Below, piece by piece: positions 2,596-11,662 of a stretch of 64,000 nucleotides of DNA (position 1 is the stretch's first letter; every line of letters starts with the position of its first letter). The notes beneath the pieces are model-generated. The model did not search any database and was not told the DNA's origin. It saw only the letters and a program-made list of their open reading frames with translations. The position numbers were made by a program, and so were the translations under genes. This DNA is from Streptomyces sp. 846.5 (lineage in GTDB: Bacteria; Actinomycetota; Actinomycetes; Streptomycetales; Streptomycetaceae): the NCBI RefSeq assembly GCF_004365705.1, contig NZ_SOBN01000003.1, positions 620,001 to 684,000 of the forward strand, read 5' to 3'.

Positions 2596-4305
2596 TCACT
2601 TGAGGGCCCCTTCCTCGGCGCGGAGCACCCATTCGGCGAAGCGCTCGTCGTCGGTGCGCTCCTGCTCGAACCGGCGCAGGACCCGCTCGATGTAGTCGGG
2701 GAGTTCGTCGGCGGTGACCTTGAGGCCGCGCAGCTTGCGGCCGAAGCCGGCCTCGAAGCCCAGGCTGCCGCCGAGGTGCACCTGGAAGCCCTCGACCTGC
2801 TCGCCCTCGGCGTTCAGGACCAGCTGGCCCTTGAGGCCGAAGTCGCCGGTCTGGATCCGGGCGCAGGCGTTGGGGCAGCCGTTGATGTTGATGCTGATCG
2901 GCTGGTCGAAGTCGGGGAGGCGCTTCTCCAGGTCGGCGATCAGGTCGTGGCCGCGGCCCTTGGTCTCGACGATGGCCAGCTTGCAGAACTCGATGCCGGT
3001 GCAGGCGATGGTGCCGCGCCGGAAGGAGGACGGGCGGACCTGGAAGTCCAGCTGGTCCAGGGCCGCGACCAGCGGGTCGACCTGGTCGGGCGCCACGTCC
3101 AGGATGATCATCTTCTGCTCGACCGTGGTGCGCAGCCGGCCCGAGCCGTGGGCGGCGGCGACGTCCGCGATCTTCGCCAGGGTCGGGCCGTCGATGCGGC
3201 CGACCTTGGGGGCGAAGCCGACGTAGAAGTTGCCGTCCTGCTGCTGGTGGACGCCCACGTGGTCGCGCCAGCGGGTGCTGGGCTCGGCCGGGGCCGGCCC
3301 GTCGATCAGCTTCGTCTTGAGGTAGTCGTCCTCGAGGATCTGCCGGAACTTCTCGGGGCCCCAGTCGGCCATCAGGAACTTCAGCCGGGCGCGGGTGCGC
3401 AGCCGGCGGTAGCCGTAGTCGCGGAAGATGCCGACGACGCCGGCCCAGACGTCCGGGACCTGCTCCAGCGGGACCCAGGTGCCCAGGCGCTCGGCCAGCC
3501 GGGGGTTGGTGGACAGGCCGCCGCCGACCCAGACGTCGAAGCCGGGGCCGTGCTCGGGGTGGACCACGCCGACGAAGGCGATGTCGTTGATCTCGTGCAC
3601 CACGTCCTGGACCGGCGATCCGGAGATCGCGGTCTTGAACTTGCGCGGGAGGTTGGAGAACTCCTTGTCGCCGATGTAGCGGCGGTGGATCTCGTCCACG
3701 GCCCAGCTGCCGTCGATGATCTCGTCCTCGGCGATGCCGGCGACCGGGGAGCCGATGATGACGCGCGGGCAGTCGCCGCAGGCCTCGGTGGTGGACAGGC
3801 CGACGGCCTCCAGCTTCTGCCAGATCGCCGGGACGTCCTCGATCCGGATCCAGTGCAGCTGGATGTTCTGCCGGTCGGTGATGTCGGCGGTGCCGCGGGC
3901 GTAGGTCTCGGAGACCTCGCCGATGGCGCGCAGCTGGGCGGTGGTCAGCCGGCCGCCGTCGATGCGGACCCGCAGCATGAAGTGCTCGTCGTCCAGCTCG
4001 TGCGGCTCCAGGATGGCGGTCTTGCCGCCGTCGATGCCGGCCTTGCGCTGGGTGTAGAGGCCCCACCAGCGCATCCGGCCGCGGAGGTCGGCCGGGTCGA
4101 TGGAGTCGAAGCCGCGCTGGGAGTAGATCGTCTCAATGCGTGTCCGCACATTGAGACCGTCGTCGTCCTTCTTGAACTGCTCGTTGGCGTTCAGCGGAGT
4201 GAAGTGACCCATGGCCCACTGGCCCTCACCGCGGTGGCGGGTCACCTTGCGGGTGGCCGCCGGGCGGCGCGCGGCGGCGTCGTCAGGGGTGGGGGTGGAG
4301 GCCAT
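2596..4305 (-). CDS. sir: Ferredoxin-dependent sulfite (nitrite/sulfite) reductase
   Basis: Six-electron reduction of sulfite to sulfide using siroheme and a [4Fe-4S] cluster, fed by ferredoxin. The duplicated nitrite/sulfite reductase half-domains are evident; the cluster cysteines are visible as CTGIEFC (C-X5-C) and GCPNAC (C-X3-C) in the C-terminal half. Placement with cysH, cysC and cysD supports sulfite rather than nitrite as substrate. I start at the ATG of MASTPTP, with GAAGGACT about six bases before it (569 aa); an in-frame upstream ATG would add 23 residues without a ribosome site. First enzyme gene of the operon, 160 bp downstream of a leader peptide. Confidence 0.94.
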   Translation of the reverse strand: MASTPTPDDAAARRPAATRKVTRHRGEGQWAMGHFTPLNANEQFKKDDDGLNVRTRIETIYSQRGFDSIDPADLRGRMRWWGLYTQRKAGIDGGKTAILEPHELDDEHFMLRVRIDGGRLTTAQLRAIGEVSETYARGTADITDRQNIQLHWIRIEDVPAIWQKLEAVGLSTTEACGDCPRVIIGSPVAGIAEDEIIDGSWAVDEIHRRYIGDKEFSNLPRKFKTAISGSPVQDVVHEINDIAFVGVVHPEHGPGFDVWVGGGLSTNPRLAERLGTWVPLEQVPDVWAGVVGIFRDYGYRRLRTRARLKFLMADWGPEKFRQILEDDYLKTKLIDGPAPAEPSTRWRDHVGVHQQQDGNFYVGFAPKVGRIDGPTLAKIADVAAAHGSGRLRTTVEQKMIILDVAPDQVDPLVAALDQLDFQVRPSSFRRGTIACTGIEFCKLAIVETKGRGHDLIADLEKRLPDFDQPISININGCPNACARIQTGDFGLKGQLVLNAEGEQVEGFQVHLGGSLGFEAGFGRKLRGLKVTADELPDYIERVLRRFEQERTDDERFAEWVLRAEEGALK

Positions 4306-4465
4306 GGTGCAGTCCTTCGGCAGAGTGGCGGGGGCCTGGGGCTCGGCGTCGGTTCCCGGTCTGCGCAGCAGCATTGACCTGCACGGTTGTGCTCGGCTCG
4401 TGCGGGCGGTGCTTGCGGTGAACCTGACCGGACCGACAGATGGCGGGAAAGAGCGGCGTGGGGAC

Positions 4466-4549
4466 TCAGGTCACCGGACAGATGGCGCTGGACATGCGGC
4501 CGAGATCGACGTGAAGTCGACCGACCAAGGCAGTTCCGGCACCAGACAT
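4466..4549 (-). CDS. Leader peptide of the sulfur-assimilation operon
   Basis: A 27-residue ORF, too short for routine gene calling, lies upstream of sulfite reductase in the same orientation. It carries RLHVDLGRMSSAIC near its C-terminus, the hallmark of the Cys-containing leader peptides found before sulfur and cysteine genes in actinobacteria (pattern R-x-H-V-D-L-x-R ... C). By analogy, ribosome pausing at the late Cys codon (residue 24) could couple operon expression to cysteine supply. The ATG has only a weak ribosome site. Identification rests on the motif and position. Confidence 0.82.
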   Translation of the reverse strand: MSGAGTALVGRLHVDLGRMSSAICPVT

Positions 4550-4614
4550 GGCAGAAGCGTCGCACGCCGAGCTTTCTTGCGTCCACCACCGTCCAGAATA
4601 TGAACAATTGTGTC

Positions 4615-4635
4615 TCGGATGGTGGGACTATCCGA
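4615..4635. promoter_or_regulatory. Inverted repeat upstream of the sulfur operon
   Basis: TCGGAT-N9-ATCCGA, perfect six-base arms, about 65 bp upstream of the leader-peptide start and overlapping the last codons of the converging-side acyl-CoA dehydrogenase gene. A nearby ACAATTGT palindrome and an AT-rich TATTCT stretch could belong to the promoter. An operator for a sulfur regulator is possible but not shown. Confidence 0.3.
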
Positions 4636-6280
4636 TCGTCGGCCGGGTCCGGGCCACGATCGCCGCGAGATCGAGGCCCGTCGGCAGCGTACCGAAGGTC
4701 GAACCCCGGTCGCCGCCCAGGCGGGATCCACCCAGCCGGGACATACGGAAGGCGTCGGCGACGCATGCCGGGGCATGCCGCAGCAGCAGCGACGCCTGCA
4801 GCAGCAGCGCCAGCCGCTCCACCACCCGGCGGGCCCTGGTCTCCAGCTCGGCCGGGTCGGCCAGCTCGGCGAGCAGTTCCTTCACGGCGGCGTCGAAGTG
4901 CTGGTCGGCGCCCTCGGCGAGCCGCAGCTCGGCCAGGAAGGCGTCCACCACCTGCGGCTCCCGGGCCAGGACGCGCAGCACGTCCAGGGCGTTCACATTG
5001 CCCGAGCCCTCCCAGACCGAGTTCAGCGGGGACTCGCGGAACAGCCGCGGCATCCCCGACTCCTCGACATAGCCGTTGCCGCCCAGGCACTCCAGCGCCT
5101 CGGCGGCGACCACCGGACAGCGCTTGGTAATCCAGTATTTGGACACCGCGACCGCCAGTCGGCGGAACTCCCGCTCCTGCGGGGTGTCCGTGTCGAAGGC
5201 GGAGGCGAGCCGCAGCGCGGTCGCGGTGGCCGCCTCGGACTCCAGCGCCAGATCGGCGAGGACATTGCGCATCAGCGGCTTGTCGACCAGCGGGCCGCCG
5301 AAGGCGCTGCGGTGCGCGGCATGGTGCGCCGCCTGGGCCAGGGCCTGCCGCATCAGCGAGGTGGAGCCCAGCACGCAGTCCATCCGGGTGGCCGCCACCA
5401 TCTCGATGATGGTCGGCACCCCGCGCCCCTCCGGGCCGAGTCGCTGCGCCCAGGTGGTGCCGTCGAACTCGACCTCGGAGGAGGCGTTGGAGCGGTTGCC
5501 CAGCTTGTCCTTGAGCCGCTGGATCCGGAACGTGTTGCGGCTGCCGTCCGGGAGCACCCGGGGCAGCACGAAGCAGGTCAGCCCGCCCGGGGCCTGCGCC
5601 AGCACCAGGAAGACGTCCGACATGGGGGCGGAGCAGAACCACTTGTGGCCGGTCAGCGCGTACTCGCCGTCCGCCGCCAGCGGCTCGGCCCGGGTGGTGT
5701 TGGCGCGGACGTCCGAGCCGCCCTGCTTCTCGGTCATCCCCATCCCGGCCAGCACGCCCCGCTTCCGCTGCGGCGCCCGCAGCCCGAAGTCGTACGTACG
5801 GGAGGTCAGCAGCGGCACCCACTGCTCGGCCAGCGCCGGATCGGTCCGCAGCGCGGGGACGGCGGCATGGGTCATCGACACCGGGCAGCCGTGCCCGTAC
5901 TCGGCCTGCGACCACACCATGAACCCGGCGGCCCGGCGCAGATGCCCGTCCGGGCGGGTCCAGGCATCGCCGGTCAGACCGGCGGAGACGGCGCGGTCCA
6001 TCAGCGAGTGCCAGGCCGGATGGAACTCGACCTCGTCGATCCGGTTGCCGTAGCGGTCATGGGTGCGCAGCAGCGGCTCATGGGTGTTGGCCAGCTCGCC
6101 CCAGTGCTGCGCCTCCGCCGAACCGGCGGCCCGCCCCAGCTCCCCGAGCTCGCCGTCGATCTCCGGCAGCCGCTCCGGCGCCGCGTACCGCGCCACACCC
6201 TCGCGCAGCGCGGCGTCGGCCCCGTACACGTCGTAGTCGACCAGCGGCGGGGCCTGGTTGGTGACGTCATGGGTGCTCAT
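4628..6280 (-). CDS. AidB-like acyl-CoA dehydrogenase family protein
   Basis: FAD flavoprotein of the AidB branch of acyl-CoA dehydrogenases, about 550 residues (E. coli AidB is 541). Visible features are the FAD-binding MGMTEKQGGSDVRANTT and TGHKWFCSAPMSD segments and the C-terminal NSVWEGSGNVNALDVLRVL, which is diagnostic of AidB rather than of short-chain acyl-CoA dehydrogenases. AidB is associated with protection from DNA alkylation in E. coli; many actinobacterial homologues are labelled isovaleryl-CoA dehydrogenase without proof. I start at MSTHDV, with GGTGG six bases upstream. It stands alone between the sulfur operon and the four-gene operon to its right. Confidence 0.88.
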   Translation of the reverse strand: MSTHDVTNQAPPLVDYDVYGADAALREGVARYAAPERLPEIDGELGELGRAAGSAEAQHWGELANTHEPLLRTHDRYGNRIDEVEFHPAWHSLMDRAVSAGLTGDAWTRPDGHLRRAAGFMVWSQAEYGHGCPVSMTHAAVPALRTDPALAEQWVPLLTSRTYDFGLRAPQRKRGVLAGMGMTEKQGGSDVRANTTRAEPLAADGEYALTGHKWFCSAPMSDVFLVLAQAPGGLTCFVLPRVLPDGSRNTFRIQRLKDKLGNRSNASSEVEFDGTTWAQRLGPEGRGVPTIIEMVAATRMDCVLGSTSLMRQALAQAAHHAAHRSAFGGPLVDKPLMRNVLADLALESEAATATALRLASAFDTDTPQEREFRRLAVAVSKYWITKRCPVVAAEALECLGGNGYVEESGMPRLFRESPLNSVWEGSGNVNALDVLRVLAREPQVVDAFLAELRLAEGADQHFDAAVKELLAELADPAELETRARRVVERLALLLQASLLLRHAPACVADAFRMSRLGGSRLGGDRGSTFGTLPTGLDLAAIVARTRPTIG

Positions 6281-6308
6281 AGCAGCCACCGTAGTTCGCC
6301 CACTGCCG

Positions 6309-8039
6309 CTAGCCCAGCCTGAACCGGGCGGCGGTTCGGATCAGGCCGGGGGAGAGGCGGCCCAGTACCCGGGCGGCCTTGGCCTCCACCGTCACCGGCA
6401 CGAAGGGGCGGTCGTCGGCGACGGCCCGGACGATCGCGGCGGCGACCTTCTCGGGCGGGAAGTTGCGCCGGGCGTACAGGCCGCTGACCCTGCGCCGCTG
6501 GGCGGTCTGCTCGGCGTCGTCCAGCCCGGAGAAGGTGGTGTTGCGGGTGATGTTGGTGTTGACGATGCCCGGGTAGATCGCCGACACCTTGATGCCCTGG
6601 TCGGCCAGCTCCGCGCGCAGGCAGTCGGAGAGCATGGAGACCCCCGCCTTGCTGGTGGCGTAGGCGGCCAGCATCCGGGACGGCAGGTAGGCCGCGGCCG
6701 AGGCCAGGTTGACGATGTGTCCGCCCTCGCCGCGCGCGGCCATCAGCGAGCCGAAGGCGCGGCAGCCGTGGATGACGCCCCACAGGTTGACGTCCAGCAC
6801 CCGCTTCCACTCCGCCTCGGTGGTCTCCAGGAAGCTGCCCGAGTGCCCGACCCCGGCGTTGTTGACCAGCACGTCGGGCACTCCGTGCTCGGTCGCTACC
6901 TTGGCGGCCAGCGCGTCCATGGCGGCGCCGTCGGAGACGTCCACCTGGTAGGCGTGGGCGGTCGCGCCCAGCAGCCGGGCCAGCTCGACGGTGCGTTCGG
7001 CGGACGGCAGGTCGCGGTCCAGCAGCACCACCTCGGCGCCCTGCTCGGCGAAGGCCAGCGCGGTGGCCCGGCCGATGCCGCTGCCCGCGCCGGTCAGCAC
7101 GACCAGCCGGCGCGGAGCCCTGGGCAGCGCGGGCCCGCCCTCGTGATGGGCGGTGAACTCGCGGACCATGCGTGCCACGGTGGTTCCCTTCTCCAGCAGC
7201 GCTCCCCAGTGGCCGACCGGGATGGTGCGCCGCCACAGCTGCGGTGCCCAGCGCTCCAGGCCCTCGGTCAGCGCCGGGCTGACGTAGTTGTCCTTGGTGA
7301 GGGTGATCGTCTGCACCGGCACGAGGGTCGGTCGCTGCCCCGGGTTCAGCAGGCGGGGCAGCATATTGGCGCGGTAGAGCGCGATGCCGCGCACCGCGTC
7401 GCCGGCCAGCTCGCCAACGGACCTGGGGTCCCCGTCACGCGGGGTGACCCCCTCGACCAGGCGCAGCAGCGAGTCCCAGCGGGCGGCCAGCCCGTGCTGC
7501 CAGGCGAGCGGCACCACCCCCGGCAGGTGGAACGCGACGATGTACCAGGAGTGCGCCGCCTGCCCGGCCAGCTGGGCGAGATGACGCGGTGTCGGCCTGG
7601 CCATCCGGTGCCGGGCCCAGTGGCCGATGTGGTCCAGGCAGGGCCCGGAGATGGAGGTGTACGAGGCGATCCGGGCCTCCGCGCCGGGGCGGGTGACCGC
7701 CTCCCAGGACTGGATGGAGCCCCAGTCGTGCGCCACCACATGGACCGGCCGGTCCGGGCTGACGGCGTCCGCGACGGCCGTCAGGTCGTCGGCCAGATGC
7801 TCCAGCCGGTAGTCGCGGACCCGTTCGGGACGGCCCGAGCCGCCCGCGCCGCGGACGTCGTAGCGGACCACCTGGTGGTCGGCGACCAGGTCGGCGGCGA
7901 CGTCGTCCCAGACCCGGTGGGTGTCGGGGTAGCCGTGCACCAGGATCACGGTCGGGTGGGCCGGGTCGCCCTCGGTGTGGACCGAGAGCGGCAGCCCGGA
8001 AGGACCGGTGACCGTGGTCCGGCGGATGGCGGCGGTCAT
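6309..8039 (-). CDS. EphD-like fusion: alpha/beta hydrolase plus short-chain dehydrogenase
   Basis: Two enzymes in one 576-residue chain. Residues about 1-290 are an alpha/beta hydrolase of the epoxide-hydrolase type: HGYPDTHRVWD gives the HG oxyanion motif and VVAHDWGS holds the candidate nucleophile Asp. Residues about 300-576 are a short-chain dehydrogenase: TGAGSGIG for NAD(P), NNAG, an S in NLASAAAYL and the catalytic YATSK. This architecture matches Mycobacterium EphD, which acts in mycolate metabolism; streptomycetes lack mycolates, so the substrate here is unknown. The ATG overlaps the M24 peptidase stop (ATGA), so it is the last gene of a coupled operon. Confidence 0.87.
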   Translation of the reverse strand: MTAAIRRTTVTGPSGLPLSVHTEGDPAHPTVILVHGYPDTHRVWDDVAADLVADHQVVRYDVRGAGGSGRPERVRDYRLEHLADDLTAVADAVSPDRPVHVVAHDWGSIQSWEAVTRPGAEARIASYTSISGPCLDHIGHWARHRMARPTPRHLAQLAGQAAHSWYIVAFHLPGVVPLAWQHGLAARWDSLLRLVEGVTPRDGDPRSVGELAGDAVRGIALYRANMLPRLLNPGQRPTLVPVQTITLTKDNYVSPALTEGLERWAPQLWRRTIPVGHWGALLEKGTTVARMVREFTAHHEGGPALPRAPRRLVVLTGAGSGIGRATALAFAEQGAEVVLLDRDLPSAERTVELARLLGATAHAYQVDVSDGAAMDALAAKVATEHGVPDVLVNNAGVGHSGSFLETTEAEWKRVLDVNLWGVIHGCRAFGSLMAARGEGGHIVNLASAAAYLPSRMLAAYATSKAGVSMLSDCLRAELADQGIKVSAIYPGIVNTNITRNTTFSGLDDAEQTAQRRRVSGLYARRNFPPEKVAAAIVRAVADDRPFVPVTVEAKAARVLGRLSPGLIRTAARFRLG

Positions 8040-8881
8040 CGGTTCTGCTCCCAGCGCCGCACGTGCGGCAGGTCGTCGTCCAGCCAGTAGGCGTCGTCCT
8101 CGGTGACGACCAGCAGTTCCTCGAACTTCAGCCCCACGTCCCGGAAGCCGATGTGCGGCTCGACCGCCCACAGCCCGGGCGTCGGCGGGTGCTGCGAGGA
8201 GCGGCCGTCCGCCCAGAGCGGGCTGCGGCCCTGGAGCTGCTCGCTGACCAGCTCGCGACCCAGCGTCTGCAGGGTGCGCACACCGAAGCCGAACAGGTTG
8301 ACCCCGGCCGGGCCGCGCTGGAGCGTCCTGGTCACCTGGTGGCCGATCACCCGGCCCGGGTAGACCCGGTGCCGGTTGTCGTAGCCGTGCTCGGTGATCA
8401 GCGCGTCCACGGAGGCGTACACCTCGTTCAGCGGGCGCCTGGCCTTCACCTCACGGAGGATCAGTTCCCGGTACTGGCGCAGGTCCTGGGCGATCATGTC
8501 CCAGATCGGGTTGTCGCCGACCTTCCCCGCGTAGCCGATGTCGGCGGTGTAGCCGTCCACCACCGGGGCGCAGTCCAGTACGAAGCACATGCCCTCCTCC
8601 AGCCGGCGTCCACTGGCGAAGAACTGCAGCGGGGTGCGGAAGTGCCGGAAGGCGGTGCGGTCGCCGAACCAGGCGAAGGGGATGTGGAAGAAGTCCTGGA
8701 CCCCGGCCGCGACCAGCTCGCGCCGCAGCCGGTTGGCGGCCTCGCGCTCGGTGACCCCGGGGGCCAGCCAGGCGGCGACGCTCTCGGCGCAGCCGTAGGC
8801 GAGCTGCTGCAACTCGCGGAAACGGTCCAGGTCGTGGGCGTCGTAGGGGAAGCGGGGCGGGGTCTTGGTTGCTGTGGTCAT
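8036..8881 (-). CDS. M24-family metallopeptidase (Xaa-Pro aminopeptidase-like)
   Basis: A single pita-bread domain of 281 residues. Metal ligands of the M24 family can be placed: LDCAPVVDGYTADIG supplies the two Asp, VIGHQV the His, AVEPH the first Glu and KFEELLVV the second Glu. It lacks the N-terminal creatinase-like domain of full Xaa-Pro aminopeptidases. The insert around residues 175-235 is long, so the substrate may not be a prolyl peptide. It lies 4 bp after the reductase gene and overlaps the EphD-like gene by 4 bp, so it is co-transcribed with redox enzymes. I see no Shine-Dalgarno at its start, consistent with coupling. Confidence 0.87.
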   Translation of the reverse strand: MTTATKTPPRFPYDAHDLDRFRELQQLAYGCAESVAAWLAPGVTEREAANRLRRELVAAGVQDFFHIPFAWFGDRTAFRHFRTPLQFFASGRRLEEGMCFVLDCAPVVDGYTADIGYAGKVGDNPIWDMIAQDLRQYRELILREVKARRPLNEVYASVDALITEHGYDNRHRVYPGRVIGHQVTRTLQRGPAGVNLFGFGVRTLQTLGRELVSEQLQGRSPLWADGRSSQHPPTPGLWAVEPHIGFRDVGLKFEELLVVTEDDAYWLDDDLPHVRRWEQNR

Positions 8882-8885
8882 CGGT

Positions 8886-9998
8886 TCAACCGTCCAGTTC
8901 GAGGCATTCGCCCTCGGGGGCGCGGGACACGCAGACGAGCATCTGGCCCTCGGCCCGCTCCTGGTCGCTGAGCCTGCGGTCGCGGTGCTCGACCGTGCCG
9001 GCCGTGACCTTGCGCCGGCAGACGCCGCAGAAGCCCTGGCGGCAGGAGTAGGGCGTGGCGGGGTCGTGCTCGCGCAGCACGTCCAGGGCGGAGCGGTCGG
9101 CGGGGACGGCGATGGTCACCCCGCTGCGGCGCAGCCGCAGGGTGAAGCGCTTGCCGTCGGTGACCGGGGCGGCGGAGAAGCGTTCGAAGTGCAGCGCGCG
9201 GGCGGGGGAGTCGTCGAAGGCGGCGCGGACCGCGTCCAGCATCGGCGCCGGGCCGCACATGTAGACGGCCGCGCCGGACGCGGGCGCGTGGCCGAGGAGT
9301 TCGGCGGCGTCGGCGTGACCGCCGTGCTCGTCGTCGGGACGGAGCACCAGGCGGGTGCCGTCCGGGTCGAGCGCGCCGAGCTCGGAGGCGAAGGGCATGG
9401 TGGCGCGGGAGCGGCCGGTGTGCACCAACCGCCAGTCCAGGCCGCGCCGGGCCGCCTCGCGGGCCATCGGCAGCAGCGGGGTGATGCCGATGCCGCCGGC
9501 GATCAGCAGTACGGCGGGGTCGGCGGCGAAGGGGAAGGCGTTGCGTGGGTGACTGATCGTCAATTCGCTGCCCACGGGGAGGTTCTGGTGGATCTCCAGG
9601 GATCCGCCGGCGCCGGTGTCGATCCGGCGTGCCGCGATCCGGTAGCGGCTGCGGTCGGTCGGGTCGCCGCACAGGGAGTACTGACGGCGCAGTCCTGACG
9701 GCAGGTCGACGTCCAGGTGCGCGCCCGGTTGCCAGGCGGGCAGCGGGTCGCTGCCGGCAGCGGCGGACCGCAGGTCGAGCGAGACCACACCCTCGGCCTC
9801 GACGGTGCGGGCGACCACCACGACCGGCAGCTGCGCCGACGTCGCCGGTATCGCGCCGCGACGGCCGTAGCGGTCCTTGCGGGTGCTGATGGGCAGGTAG
9901 AAACGGGTGACCGTGTCCAGGAAGCGCATGAAGCGGTCGTCGCGTCCGCGCCCGTACAGGTCGGGCGGGGGCGGCAGCGGGGTGGGTTCGGGGCTCAT
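8886..9998 (-). CDS. Phthalate-dioxygenase-reductase-type flavin/[2Fe-2S] oxidoreductase
   Basis: NAD(P)H-dependent electron donor with three domains in order: flavin domain (RQYSLCGDP about residue 125), nucleotide domain (LLIAGGIGITPLLPM and MCGPAPML), and a C-terminal plant-type ferredoxin with CRQGFCGVC plus a distal VCVS, i.e. C-X4-C-X2-C-Xn-C. The first 45 residues (DLYGRGRDDRFMRFLD) are an extra N-terminal segment. Such reductases pass electrons to oxygenases. The adjacent upstream gene encodes a ferritin-like diiron protein, so the two probably form an oxygenase system. It lies 34 bp after that gene and 4 bp before the M24 gene. Confidence 0.9.
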   Translation of the reverse strand: MSPEPTPLPPPPDLYGRGRDDRFMRFLDTVTRFYLPISTRKDRYGRRGAIPATSAQLPVVVVARTVEAEGVVSLDLRSAAAGSDPLPAWQPGAHLDVDLPSGLRRQYSLCGDPTDRSRYRIAARRIDTGAGGSLEIHQNLPVGSELTISHPRNAFPFAADPAVLLIAGGIGITPLLPMAREAARRGLDWRLVHTGRSRATMPFASELGALDPDGTRLVLRPDDEHGGHADAAELLGHAPASGAAVYMCGPAPMLDAVRAAFDDSPARALHFERFSAAPVTDGKRFTLRLRRSGVTIAVPADRSALDVLREHDPATPYSCRQGFCGVCRRKVTAGTVEHRDRRLSDQERAEGQMLVCVSRAPEGECLELDG

Positions 9999-10032
9999 GG
10001 GATGGCGTGGTCCTCGGGGTCGATGCGCTGGA

Positions 10033-10926
10033 TCAGTGCGCGGCGGCGCGGGCGGCCGGGGAGGTGCCCAGGTAGGCGACGGCCTGCCGGGTGGAGCCCT
10101 CCTGGGTCGGGTGGTAGCTGCGACTGAGGTAGCGCGCCGCCGAGCGGCCGGCCTTGCCCAGCTGCGGCAGCAGCCCGCGCTTCGACGCCGCGGTGTAGGC
10201 CCGCCAGCTGGGACGGGCCTGGCCGGGGACGAGCGTCGGATCGTTGGTCATCAGGAAGCGGGTGCCGCGGACCCAGAGGTGCACCAGCACCGGGCCGGTG
10301 ATCGCCATGGCGCGGATCCGCCGGACGTACCCCGGGTCCAGGTGCCGGAGCAGGTCGAAGGCGACGCTGCGGTGCTCGACCTCCTCGGCGCCGTGCCAGC
10401 GGATCAGGTCCAGCATGGTCGGGTCCACCCCGGCCCGGTCCAGGGCGTCCGCGTTCAGCACCCAGTCGCCGAGGAAGGCGGTGAAGTGCTCGATGGCGGC
10501 GATCACGGCGACCCGCTCGATCAGGTTCTCCCGGGCCGCCGTGCCGGTCAGCTCCGGGTGTTCGCCCAGCACACGCTGGAACAGGTACTCGGCCTGGCGG
10601 GTGTAGGGGCGCGGGTCGAGGCCCTTGGCCAGCAGGTGGTCCAGCACGCCCTGGTGCGCCTCGGCGTGAATGGCCTCCTGGCCGACAAAGCCCAGCACCT
10701 CCTCGCGCAGCCGCTCGTCGCGGATCAGCGGCAGCGCCTCCTTGAAGGTCCGGACGAACCAGCGCTCGCCCTCGGGGAGCAGCAGGTGCAGCACATTGAC
10801 CACATGGGTGGCCATCGGCTCGCCGGGGATCCAGTGCATCGGCAGGGCGTTCCAGTCGAACTGCACGTTCCTGGGCTGCAGGACGAGACCGTGGTGTTCG
10901 CCGTCCCCGGCCGGGCTGTGGGGCAT
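10033..10926 (-). CDS. PF10118-type 'metal-dependent hydrolase', ferritin-like diiron protein
   Basis: A 297-residue all-helical protein. Families of this kind are named metal-dependent hydrolases, but the sequence has the ligand pattern of diiron carboxylate oxygenases: Glu54 (GERWF), E84-A-I-H87, Glu146 (IEHFTAF) and E182-V-E-H185, i.e. E...ExxH...E...ExxH. With a PDR-type reductase immediately downstream, an O2-activating diiron oxygenase or desaturase is my preferred reading; this is inference. It is the first gene of the operon and diverges from a TetR gene across two related palindromes, so repression by that TetR protein is likely. Confidence 0.8.
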   Translation of the reverse strand: MPHSPAGDGEHHGLVLQPRNVQFDWNALPMHWIPGEPMATHVVNVLHLLLPEGERWFVRTFKEALPLIRDERLREEVLGFVGQEAIHAEAHQGVLDHLLAKGLDPRPYTRQAEYLFQRVLGEHPELTGTAARENLIERVAVIAAIEHFTAFLGDWVLNADALDRAGVDPTMLDLIRWHGAEEVEHRSVAFDLLRHLDPGYVRRIRAMAITGPVLVHLWVRGTRFLMTNDPTLVPGQARPSWRAYTAASKRGLLPQLGKAGRSAARYLSRSYHPTQEGSTRQAVAYLGTSPAARAAAH

Positions 10927-10963
10927 GGGGTCCTCCCTGACCGACGTCTTGTTGACGCTCTTA

Positions 10964-10978
10964 TTGATGCTTACTCAA
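10964..10978. promoter_or_regulatory. Putative TetR operator, site 2
   Basis: TTGA-N7-TCAA, less symmetrical than the neighbouring site but with the same half-site sequence and the same 7-bp spacer: both read TATTGA-N7-TCAA(C/T)AG. Its centre is 27 bp from that of site 1, nearer the minus-strand operon. Probably bound by the divergent TetR protein. Confidence 0.6.
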
Positions 10979-10985
10979 CAGTAGG

Positions 10986-11010
10986 GTCTATTGAGGACAA
11001 GTCAATAGAC
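10986..11010. promoter_or_regulatory. Putative TetR operator, site 1 (perfect palindrome)
   Basis: GTCTATTGA-N7-TCAATAGAC: perfect nine-base arms around a 7-bp spacer, ending seven bases before the tetR ATG. Size, symmetry and position between divergent genes are typical of TetR autoregulatory operators, so both directions are probably controlled. Confidence 0.75.
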
Positions 11011-11017
11011 TGTGCAC

Positions 11018-11662
11018 ATGGTTCGTTCCCCCGGCTCCCGGCTGTCCCCCGCCGACCGCAAGACGCAGATCCTCGCTGCCGCCCGTGGCCTGCTCGAAGC
11101 CCGCAGCATCGACGACCTCTCGGTGGAGGCGGTGGCGGAGGAGGTCGGGGTCTCGCCGGGGCTGCTGTTCCACTACTTCGGCTCGCAGCGCAAGCTGCGG
11201 CAGGCGGTGCTGCACGCGGTGGCGGCGGAACTGCTCGACCATGTGCGGCCCGACCCCGCGCTCACCCCCTCCGAACAGCTGCGCTCCGGTATCGACACCT
11301 TCGTCGAGCAGGTCTCCCGGCACCCCTCCCTCTATCTCGCCGTGGTCCGGCTGACCACCACCGGCGACAACGCGGAGATGAAGGCGCTGCACCGGGCGAT
11401 GCGGACCACCTTCACCGAGTGGATCACCGCGGGTCTGATGGGCGCCGGGATGCCGCCGAGTCCGCGGGTGGCGATGGCGGTGCACGGGTGGCAGGCCTTC
11501 CTGGAAGAGGTCGTGCTGGCCTGGCTGGACCAGCCCGCGGCGGAGCGGATGGAGCGGGCCGAGCTGGTGGAGCTCTGCCATCGCGCCTGCTACCAGCTGG
11601 TCATGGTGGCCCTGGACGACCCGGAGGCCTGGGAGCGGATGCTGCCCGTGCTGCGGCGCTGA
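11018..11662 (+). CDS. TetR-family transcriptional regulator
   Basis: A repressor-type protein of about 214 residues. The N-terminal HTH is plain: RKTQILAAARGLLE, then VEAVAEEVGVSPGLLFHYFGSQRKL at about residues 35-60, the TetR recognition helix with a HYF signature. The remaining helices form the ligand domain; a C-terminal TetR_C-like fold is likely. The ATG lies seven bases after a palindrome, so the transcript is probably very short-leadered or leaderless. It diverges from the diiron/reductase/M24/EphD-like operon and is the obvious candidate regulator. The ligand is unknown, but the operon suggests a lipid or hydrophobic compound. Confidence 0.92.
   Translation: MVRSPGSRLSPADRKTQILAAARGLLEARSIDDLSVEAVAEEVGVSPGLLFHYFGSQRKLRQAVLHAVAAELLDHVRPDPALTPSEQLRSGIDTFVEQVSRHPSLYLAVVRLTTTGDNAEMKALHRAMRTTFTEWITAGLMGAGMPPSPRVAMAVHGWQAFLEEVVLAWLDQPAAERMERAELVELCHRACYQLVMVALDDPEAWERMLPVLRR

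Follow-up and report, generated by a model that had tools for sequence, protein, structure and literature searches.

The PF10118 protein encoded in the window considered here, namely, a 64,000-nucleotide stretch of Streptomyces sp. 846.5 DNA, and its homologues are best explained as ferritin-like diiron enzymes, not hydrolases, with the protein encoded here probably acting in an epoxide-forming pathway, a reading to which a probability of about 0.6 can be assigned. The components of this reading differ in strength. It is very probable that the PF10118 protein is a diiron protein served by the PDR-type reductase encoded beside it, there is good reason to consider the protein encoded here an oxygenase, and the chances that it feeds an epoxide route, with epoxidation at the diiron site being followed by hydrolysis, are about even. 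The iron content, O2 chemistry, epoxidation and substrate of the PF10118 protein are features that we infer. The co-occurrence of the protein with its reductase and an epoxide-opening enzyme suggests an undescribed oxidation pathway.

The gene encoding the PF10118 protein (positions 10033-10926, minus strand; 297 aa), a probable ferritin-like diiron oxygenase that scores 259.4 bits against the family profile (cut-off 33.2), opens a four-gene minus-strand operon. It is followed by genes encoding a PDR/VanB-type reductase (8886-9998, minus strand; 370 aa), an M24-fold protein (8036-8881, minus strand; 281 aa) and an EphD-like epoxide hydrolase-SDR fusion (6309-8039, minus strand; 576 aa if translation starts at the ATG of position 8039, with the longest ORF beginning at 8171), with a gene encoding a TetR-family regulator (11012-11662, plus strand; start at GTG 11012 or ATG 11018) being divergently oriented. 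The spacing listed in the first-pass annotation, namely, 34 bp between the PF10118 and reductase genes, 4 bp between the reductase and M24 genes and a 4-bp overlap of the M24 and fusion genes, agrees with these coordinates. A gene encoding an AidB-like acyl-CoA dehydrogenase (4628-6289, minus strand; GTG start) begins 19 bp past the SDR stop codon and could represent a fifth operon gene here. AidB as a generally conserved fifth gene was rejected, since among the loci searched such adjacency was seen only in genomes G000, G002 and G019; at loci L061 and L226, apparently from one contig, AidB is distant from the operon and oppositely oriented. Scanning of positions 4300-6500 revealed no terminator-like site, and scanning of positions 10850-11100 revealed no sigma-70-like promoter. 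The operon is also found in a number of actinomycete genera and on a plasmid of Dietzia, while a version lacking the reductase is present in Burkholderia.

The first-pass annotation had assigned the PF10118 protein a full diiron carboxylate signature, comprising E54, E84, H87, E146, E182 and H185. These six proposed ligands are indeed present and are invariant both in 37 of 37 aligned homologues and in all 163 rows of a broader alignment (162 distinct sequences from three phyla), drawn from a family that numbers at least 597 loci in a scan of species genomes. Equally invariant in the 163 rows are Q83, H91, H178, E181 and E184, such that the family motif reads QExxH...HxxEExxH, with H178 as the extra histidine also seen in AurF N-oxygenases and as the probable seventh ligand. 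Among 8192 further long frames at these loci, none contains this two-part motif. Histidine four residues before the second ExxH glutamate (HxxxExxH) is common to PF10118 proteins (163/163) and the AurF family (30/30) but is absent from R2 proteins (0/20) and from three 'R2lox-like' sequences (0/3), a label given in this analysis to three weak PF00268 matches. The residue preceding the first ExxH is Gln in every PF10118 row, as opposed to an acid (D/E) in 26 of the 30 AurF-family domains, all 30 of which carry a Glu equivalent to E181; these comparisons cover 30 loci among the matches listed, the family matches being more numerous, and restricted motif positions.

As to fold, the AlphaFold model of the PF10118 protein describes a helical bundle (pLDDT 94.1; pTM 0.91) whose core helices span residues 37-67 (carrying E54), 71-100 (E84 and H87), 128-157 (E146) and 169-196 (E182 and H185). 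The structure prediction proposed earlier as a check thus yields a confident R2/R2lox-type bundle with ligand residues on each of four core helices, that is, two ExxH motifs and two further Glu/Asp residues on a predicted ferritin-like four-helix bundle; that the Glu and His ligands cluster in this model is what we infer. R2lox and R2 proteins were returned as structural neighbors in two fold searches. The best Foldseek E-value was just 6.3e-3 (TM approximately 0.5), and the 50 VIA-align matches listed were all R2 or R2lox proteins, with 227-252 residues aligned, rmsd values of 3.9-5.5 and Z scores of 12.9-14.1, values borderline for helical bundles. AurF is absent among those 50 matches, which is not evidence against AurF kinship.

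In profile alignments, E54, E84, H87, E146, E182 and H185 fall opposite D/E, E, H, E, E and H, respectively, of the R2 and R2lox-like profiles. Nonetheless, PF10118 matches the profiles of characterised diiron families only weakly. In single hhalign comparisons, AurF was the best of three (E 6.7e-4, 27% probability; H178, E182, H185, E84 and H87 aligned, E54 and E146 opposite gaps), followed by R2 (E 0.017) and the three-sequence R2lox-like profile (E 0.18). A Pfam-A hmmscan at E-values up to 0.001 returned PF10118 alone, with PF11583 (AurF) and PF00268 (R2) unmatched, and phmmer identified no PDB relative at E-values up to 1. The five matches from a PDB profile search all fell short of significance, namely, 7twa, a 4-chloro-allylglycine synthase (0.2), ribosomal protein S8 (0.27), AurF entries 3chh (0.33) and 2jcd (0.34), and a designed protein (0.85).

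The neighboring reductase had been described earlier as a PDR-type enzyme with a plant-type ferredoxin, encoded 3' of the PF10118 gene, and both the domain order and the four cysteines bear this out. The protein contains flavin (RQYSL at 105), NAD (GGIGITP at 168) and C-terminal plant-type [2Fe-2S] (C319, C324, C327 and C356) domains, the arrangement of PDR/VanB-type enzymes, and matches 2pia over residues 73-365 (E 4.5e-55). A survey across genomes, also proposed at the outset, found the PF10118-reductase pair to be conserved and in some cases even fused, such that neither outcome named in the first-pass annotation as contrary to its reading was seen. The reductase gene lies directly downstream of the PF10118 gene in 80/80 close relatives (the best 80 of at least 597 loci) and adjoins it in 66 of 99 family-level genes (100 rows minus the G070 fragment, with adjacency of reductase rows picked and misses checked by eye). 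Across the 163 rows, 130 place a reductase beside PF10118, a distribution requiring 4 changes on the tree, as compared to 30.4 with shuffled labels, the tree being a FastTree reconstruction with several long branches used only for this label count and for identifying nearest rows. Among 20 more diverse PF10118 loci, 12 have no adjoining reductase, including all seven at 28-33% local identity. Given these 12 loci and the 33 of 99 family genes similarly lacking an adjoining reductase, the reductase is not obligatory for the PF10118 family.

Of the 14 genus genomes considered, 11 have PF10118 and the reductase in one open frame, with six of these having been read through without stops and five being based on equal open-frame lengths. 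In one of the six, from the 76%-complete genome G070, the PF10118 portion is broken near residue 51 and in frame thereafter. The possibility that the reductase instead serves a Rieske oxygenase was rejected, as the only Rieske match on the contig (of 14 in the genome) is located some 210 kb away. Unlike the operon reductase, a paralog at C1:835493 (43% identity) lies next to a Rieske match (C1:834286).

The EphD-like fusion scores 802 bits against NF004514 (cut-off 455) and comprises an epoxide hydrolase domain with D105, Y166, Y222, D250 and H277, and an SDR domain with TGAGSGIG at 316 and Y460/K464. The hydrolase site residues align with those of solved epoxide hydrolases, with the isobutylene epoxide hydrolase 9c2g being among the matches, and are retained in partner proteins elsewhere (D105, Y166, Y222 and H277 in 53/53; D250 in 52/53). 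An Asp nucleophile accompanied by two ring-opening Tyr residues is the pattern of an epoxide hydrolase and not of a dehalogenase. The fusion is also found where the reductase is absent, as at L217, L219-L223, L232 and L233, and at the Burkholderia locus L158. When partners were scored by a tblastn match within 3.5 kb, a rule by which divergent or cut-off epoxide hydrolase and M24 partners are missed, 55 of 87 reductase-linked PF10118 genes whose locus sequence extended to 9 kb or more showed no nearby epoxide hydrolase match. As such, epoxidation cannot be a rule for the PF10118 family. The M24 protein, in turn, scores 76.9 bits against PF00557 (cut-off 23), finds no PDB sequence match at 1e-4 and contains D103, D114, H181, E241, E254 and E255, all invariant in 29/29 sequences. 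M24 peptidases bind metal through a D, D, H, E, E pattern, and the fold family includes non-peptidases as well.

Two palindromes of the same consensus (TATTGA-N7-TCAAYAG), noted earlier before the divergent tetR gene, are both real and unique to this locus in the 9.03-Mb genome. The first (TATTGATGCTTACTCAACAG) spans positions 10962-10981, and the second (CTATTGA-N7-TCAATAG) spans positions 10988-11009, immediately before the tetR start, with the consensus matching both strands at 10989-11008. No further site was found in the window with one mismatch allowed, and shuffled sequences also gave none. In a genome-wide search, the exact pattern occurred at a single place in G000, the tetR/PF10118 intergenic region, and was seen at the equivalent intergenic place in G002 and G019, two relatives in which the block is identical. 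Of the remaining 11 genomes of the genus, 10 lack the pattern and one, G042, contains it on a contig other than that encoding PF10118; a reversed control pattern gave no matches in 14/14 genomes. These palindromes are putative operators, to which TetR would bind, so repressing both the operon and its own gene, with repression presumably being lifted by a ligand, probably the substrate or product of the pathway.

In the pathway envisaged, NADH would reduce the flavin and then the [2Fe-2S] center of the PDR-type reductase, which would hand electrons to the PF10118 diiron site. The diferrous site would activate O2 and oxygenate a hydrophobic substrate, with an epoxide being the most likely product. 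The EphD-like hydrolase domain would convert this epoxide into a diol, to be oxidised by the fused SDR domain, and the M24 metalloenzyme may perform a further step on the same compound. The substrate is perhaps a lipid, judging from gene company, namely, EphD activity and the acyl-CoA ligase, P450 or NAD(P)/FAD-dependent oxidoreductase genes that adjoin other PF10118 genes. Mycobacterial EphD is reported to open 9,10-epoxystearate, thus acting on epoxystearic acid (PMC7998700). In an earlier description of the locus as an undescribed oxygenase pathway, perhaps for a lipid, oxygenase accordingly stands as the best reading of sequence and model, undescribed holds within the open-access searches reported below, and lipid is suggested by the genes nearby.

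Other readings place different chemistry at the same site. A PF10118 protein that hydroxylates aliphatic C-H bonds in an alkane, fatty or terpenoid chain, with the EphD-like protein acting on a separate epoxide or in by-product detoxification, would account for the 55 reductase-linked genes showing no epoxide hydrolase match. It would equally suit certain PF10118 loci elsewhere, where the neighboring genes encode a long-chain acyl-CoA ligase together with an aldehyde dehydrogenase, a set made up of a ferredoxin, a P450 and an FAD-oxidoreductase, or SDR proteins alongside NAD(P)/FAD-dependent oxidoreductases. Yet, the EphD fusion is a constant partner in the present operon type, even without the reductase, and this alternative is considered unlikely, if deserving of attention. 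An AurF-type N-oxygenase, with the M24 protein, whose fold can cleave C-N bonds, freeing or handling an amine that is oxidised at the diiron site, finds support in the AurF-like seventh ligand and in AurF having given the best of the three profile matches and having also appeared, weakly, in the PDB profile search. This proposal is nonetheless improbable in light of the Gln that replaces the acid before the first ExxH, the unmatched PF11583 profile and the presence of epoxide hydrolase and SDR proteins, which do not suit an N-oxidation pathway.

Less probable still is a CylC-type radical halogenase acting on an acyl chain. The PF10118 motif resembles the QExxH/HxxDExxH reported for CylC homologues (PMC12101540), but where the published motif has Asp, PF10118 proteins have E181, a Glu shared with the AurF-family domains. 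Moreover, a scan of seven neighboring proteins turned up no acyl-carrier protein and no halogen enzyme, and the Asp-nucleophile partner retains both ring-opening Tyr residues, the mark of an epoxide hydrolase. That the protein is a metal-dependent hydrolase or protease, in keeping with the Pfam name and with candidate use as a lanthipeptide protease (PMC8960859), is hardly credible when set against the predicted R2-like bundle, the diiron ligand set and fusion to a redox reductase in relatives. UfaO, a furan fatty acid oxygenase, was rejected as a PF10118 relative, as it is described as carrying DUF1365 (PMC7380195). A broader and tentative possibility is that PF10118 represents a new and widespread branch of the ferritin-like diiron enzymes, having a three-histidine site of the AurF/CylC type, served by a dedicated NADH reductase, either fused or adjacent, and selectively oxidising or even halogenating aliphatic chains. 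Were this so, the whole 'metal-dependent hydrolase' family, with at least 597 loci, would consist of redox enzymes.

Searches of the open-access literature found no description of PF10118 (COG3687, IPR016516, UCP07580) as a diiron enzyme, and none of a metal-dependent hydrolase paired with a VanB family oxidoreductase or CYP153. A network analysis took a PF10118 group as a candidate lanthipeptide-maturation protease on the basis of correlation and co-expression (PMC8960859). If PF10118 proteins are reductase-coupled diiron oxygenases, such protease-type assignments would need revision, and the operon of actinomycetes, the Dietzia plasmid and Burkholderia would become a testable oxidation pathway. 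A natural diiron-reductase fusion, being a single chain, would lend itself to spectroscopy and biocatalysis. An AurF-like site with an extra histidine, combined with epoxide hydrolase partners, would inform on the role of the third histidine in C as opposed to N oxidation.

Read as part of an epoxide-forming pathway, the operon recalls the alkene and isobutylene monooxygenase pathways, in which soluble diiron monooxygenases work with a ferredoxin-type reductase and an epoxide hydrolase. The working set is the same, whereas the PF10118 protein is a single oxygenase chain of another family, the reductase follows the order flavin-NAD-Fe2S and no coupling protein was found among the neighboring proteins scanned at the operon. 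R2lox (R2-like ligand-binding oxidase) and ribonucleotide reductase R2 are the best fold neighbors, with all six ligand positions coinciding in profile alignments, yet these proteins lack the additional His, the PF00268 profile misses the PF10118 protein and the latter has a redox partner encoded next door or fused. With the AurF/CmlI/AzoC N-oxygenases (PF11583), PF10118 proteins share a ferritin-like site, two ExxH motifs and a further His placed four residues ahead of the second of these; the ligands modelled for AzoC are E102, E137, H140, E198, H225, E229 and H232 (PMC6783550). They differ in the residue that precedes the first ExxH, which is Gln rather than an acid such as D135 of AurF (PMC12101540), in the invariant H91 and E184 and in the marginal profile match. 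CylC/NocO dimetal halogenases are similar by published motifs (QExxH and HxxxExxH; PMC12101540) but have Asp where PF10118 has Glu in the second motif, keep different gene company and reportedly do not absolutely conserve the third-helix Glu (PMC12101540) that is invariant in PF10118 (163/163). Finally, mycobacterial EphD presents the same epoxide hydrolase-SDR fusion, which here, by contrast, shares an operon with a diiron protein, a reductase and an M24 protein.

Four genes run leftwards from position 10926 on the reverse strand, encoding the PF10118 protein (10033-10926), a PDR-type reductase, an M24 protein and an EphD-like epoxide hydrolase-SDR fusion, with intergenic distances of 34 bp, 4 bp and then a 4-bp overlap, while a TetR-encoding gene starts at 11012 in the opposite direction. 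The operon order, spacing and divergent tetR of the first-pass annotation were all borne out on the sequence. The assembly (9.03 Mb in five contigs, the window lying on contig 3) holds a single PF10118 gene, whose closest named relatives, among the matches listed, are from Streptomyces, Embleya and Kitasatospora; the G+C content of the window is 70-74% per 4 kb. A gene encoding an AidB-like acyl-CoA dehydrogenase (4628-6289, reverse strand) starts 19 bp past the SDR stop. Among the loci searched, it adjoins the operon only in the window's own genome (G000) and in two others of the genus (G002 and G019).

Two palindromes of the same consensus, TATTGA-N7-TCAAYAG, had also been noted ahead of tetR. 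Both are present (10962-10981 and 10989-11008), and no further site was found in the 64 kb with one mismatch tolerated, shuffled sequences likewise giving zero. The exact palindrome occurs in four of 14 genomes of the genus, namely, at the operon promoter in G000, G002 and G019, and as a single copy on a different contig in G042; a control with the reversed pattern gave no match in the 14. A 70-bp block containing both palindromes is identical in G000, G002 and G019, and the adjoining sequence carries insertions and deletions. On these counts, the consensus is private to the operon, as expected of a candidate operator of the local TetR.

The database name of the PF10118 protein is 'predicted metal-dependent hydrolase'. 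In an alignment of 37 homologues (identity down to 25%), E54, Q83, E84, H87, H91, E146, W177, H178, E181, E182, E184 and H185 were invariant, and all twelve remained so across 163 rows (162 distinct) from Actinomycetota, with plasmid records adding Alpha-, Beta- and Gammaproteobacteria and a Nostoc. The proposed diiron carboxylate signature (E54, E84/H87, E146 and E182/H185) is, accordingly, confirmed as invariant. The two-part motif QExxHxxxH...WHxxEExEH was found in 163/163 PF10118 rows vs. 0/8192 other long frames from the same loci. The Nostoc plasmid gene (L234, 4950-6924), divergent at 27% identity and located beside a methyltransferase gene, keeps all twelve residues.

An AlphaFold2 model built on the 37-row alignment (pLDDT 94.1, pTM 0.91) contains long helices at residues 37-67, 71-100, 128-157 and 169-196, each bearing part of the ligand set. 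Foldseek ranked R2-like ligand-binding oxidases first, weakly (E 6.3e-3), and VIA-align gave Z scores of 12.9-14.1 over 227-252 residues against R2 and R2lox chains among the matches listed, values to be read as borderline, as helical bundles can approach them by chance. Profile-profile comparison was also weak (AurF, E 6.7e-4 and probability 27%; R2, 0.017; R2lox-like, 0.18). Despite these scores, E54, E84, H87, E146, E182 and H185 aligned opposite D/E, E, H, E, E and H in R2 and R2lox-like proteins, a telling pairing, at the sequence level, in which none of the six ligand positions is missed. Against AurF, the residues E84, H87, H178, E182 and H185 fell on AurF motifs, and E54 and E146 opposite gaps. 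The predicted structure hence agrees with the helical bundle anticipated earlier, with R2/R2lox fold neighbours and putative ligands spread over four long helices.

Ferritin-like diiron enzymes are, as a type, already known. The PF10118 ligand pattern, the PDR-reductase fusion, the operon and the family as such were not found described in the open-access literature searched, where COG, InterPro and gene-context terms gave no account of the family beyond a single mention. That mention is a correlation network in which one group of PF10118 proteins served as the candidate proteases for lanthipeptides (PMC8960859), an assignment that may reflect the misleading family name. The earlier term 'undescribed' thus holds within that literature for the operon and for PF10118 as a diiron family, not for the enzyme type.

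The PDR-type reductase belongs to the PF10118 protein as its partner. A homologue lies downstream of PF10118 on the same strand in 80/80 of the best-matching loci (the best 80 of at least 597 named), 15-359 bp from the PF10118 match. In an even sample of the window's taxonomic family, 93 of 121 genomes contain PF10118, and the reductase follows within 614 bp for 66 of the 99 genes; in a phylum sample, 23/296 genomes contain PF10118. Among 20 more diverse loci with flanks of about 10 kb, the reductase was near PF10118 in eight, with no match in 12, including the seven most divergent (0/7). Over the 163-row tree, the pair state changed four times vs. 30.4 with shuffled labels. The expected conservation of the pair was therefore seen, and is joined by fusions: PF10118 and reductase share a single open frame in 11 of 14 genus genomes, six frames reading through without stops, with a short, Ala-rich linker wherever the PF10118 part is complete. 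Fusion loci (L004, L007, L031, L155-L157 and L229-L231) come from most genomes of the genus. G000, G002 and G019 have the two-gene form, and their PF10118 proteins are nearest other Streptomycetaceae on the tree, which suggests operon replacement within the genus. The closest structure to the reductase, which has four Fe-S cysteines, is phthalate dioxygenase reductase (2pia). No Rieske oxygenase is encoded near it, the sole Rieske match on the contig lying about 210 kb away. Elsewhere in the genome, a paralogous PDR reductase gene (43% identity) adjoins a Rieske-domain gene in the classical arrangement, the pair spanning G000:C1:834286-836428.

The window's order, PF10118-reductase-M24-EphD/SDR, recurs in relatives (L058, L060, L062-L066, L072, L214, L215 and L225). 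M24-EphD/SDR precedes a fused PF10118::reductase in L156, L157, L230 and L231, and PF10118 without a window-type reductase in L217, L219-L223, L232, L233 and Burkholderia L158. In Rhodococcus (L079, L082, L119 and L130), PF10118-reductase-hydrolase lacks a matched SDR; in many Streptomyces, PF10118-reductase is followed by tetR, with no epoxide hydrolase match. As a 58-kb mobilizable Dietzia plasmid (L159, 30-5346) carries the same five genes, ordered M24-EphD/SDR-PF10118-reductase-TetR, the set can probably move horizontally. Where the locus extends over at least 9 kb (103 rows), reductase, epoxide hydrolase-SDR and M24 occur together in 14, the latter two without reductase in eight, and reductase alone in 53. 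M24 tracks the fusion (both in 22, fusion without M24 in four, M24 without fusion in two). The M24 metal-ligand pattern is kept in 29/29, and no PDB relative was found at 1e-4.

In the hydrolase domain, D105, Y166, Y222 and H277 are kept in 53/53 sequences and D250 in 52/53, aligning with the active site of solved epoxide hydrolases; we take these to be the nucleophile (D105), ring-opening tyrosines, acid and base. Mycobacterial EphD, the same epoxide hydrolase-SDR fusion, is reported to open 9,10-epoxystearate and to modify epoxymycolates (PMC7998700).

With a diiron protein and its own reductase beside an epoxide-opening enzyme and an alcohol dehydrogenase, the operon reads most simply as epoxidation, then hydrolysis, then oxidation. 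The diiron protein and dedicated reductase would epoxidize the substrate, the EphD-like hydrolase would open the epoxide and the SDR would oxidize the product. Several independent lines argue for the diiron-reductase step; the epoxide step would follow from partner chemistry, and a lipid substrate is suggested by gene company only. Other PF10118 genes neighbour NAD(P)/FAD-dependent oxidoreductases, SDRs, a long-chain acyl-CoA ligase or a P450 set. On an Acinetobacter plasmid (L239, 1007-8484), genes for a 2Fe-2S protein, a presumably CYP153-like cytochrome P450 and an FAD oxidoreductase precede PF10118, TetR and two PaaI thioesterases. Given this varied company, and with no epoxide hydrolase match near 55 of 87 reductase-linked PF10118 genes, PF10118 enzymes as a whole probably oxidize a range of hydrophobic compounds, and by more than a single route.

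H178, a probable seventh ligand, lies four residues ahead of E182, and a histidine occupies the equivalent position in 30/30 of the AurF-family domains retrieved, but in 0/20 R2 and 0/3 R2lox-like domains. The corresponding histidine is reported to be an iron ligand in AurF-type enzymes (H225 in the AzoC model; PMC6783550), and a 3-His/4-carboxylate site to be largely unique to N-oxygenases (PMC12101540). Before the first ExxH, 26 of the 30 AurF-family domains have Asp or Glu, whereas every PF10118 row has Gln; CylC halogenases are reported to carry QExxH and HxxDExxH (PMC12101540). Since the Glu preceding the second ExxH is common to PF10118 and all 30 AurF-family domains, only the Gln points towards CylC. 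With an extra histidine as in AurF and a glutamine as in CylC, the latter compared by published motifs, PF10118 is, judged by its predicted ligands, a distinct branch.
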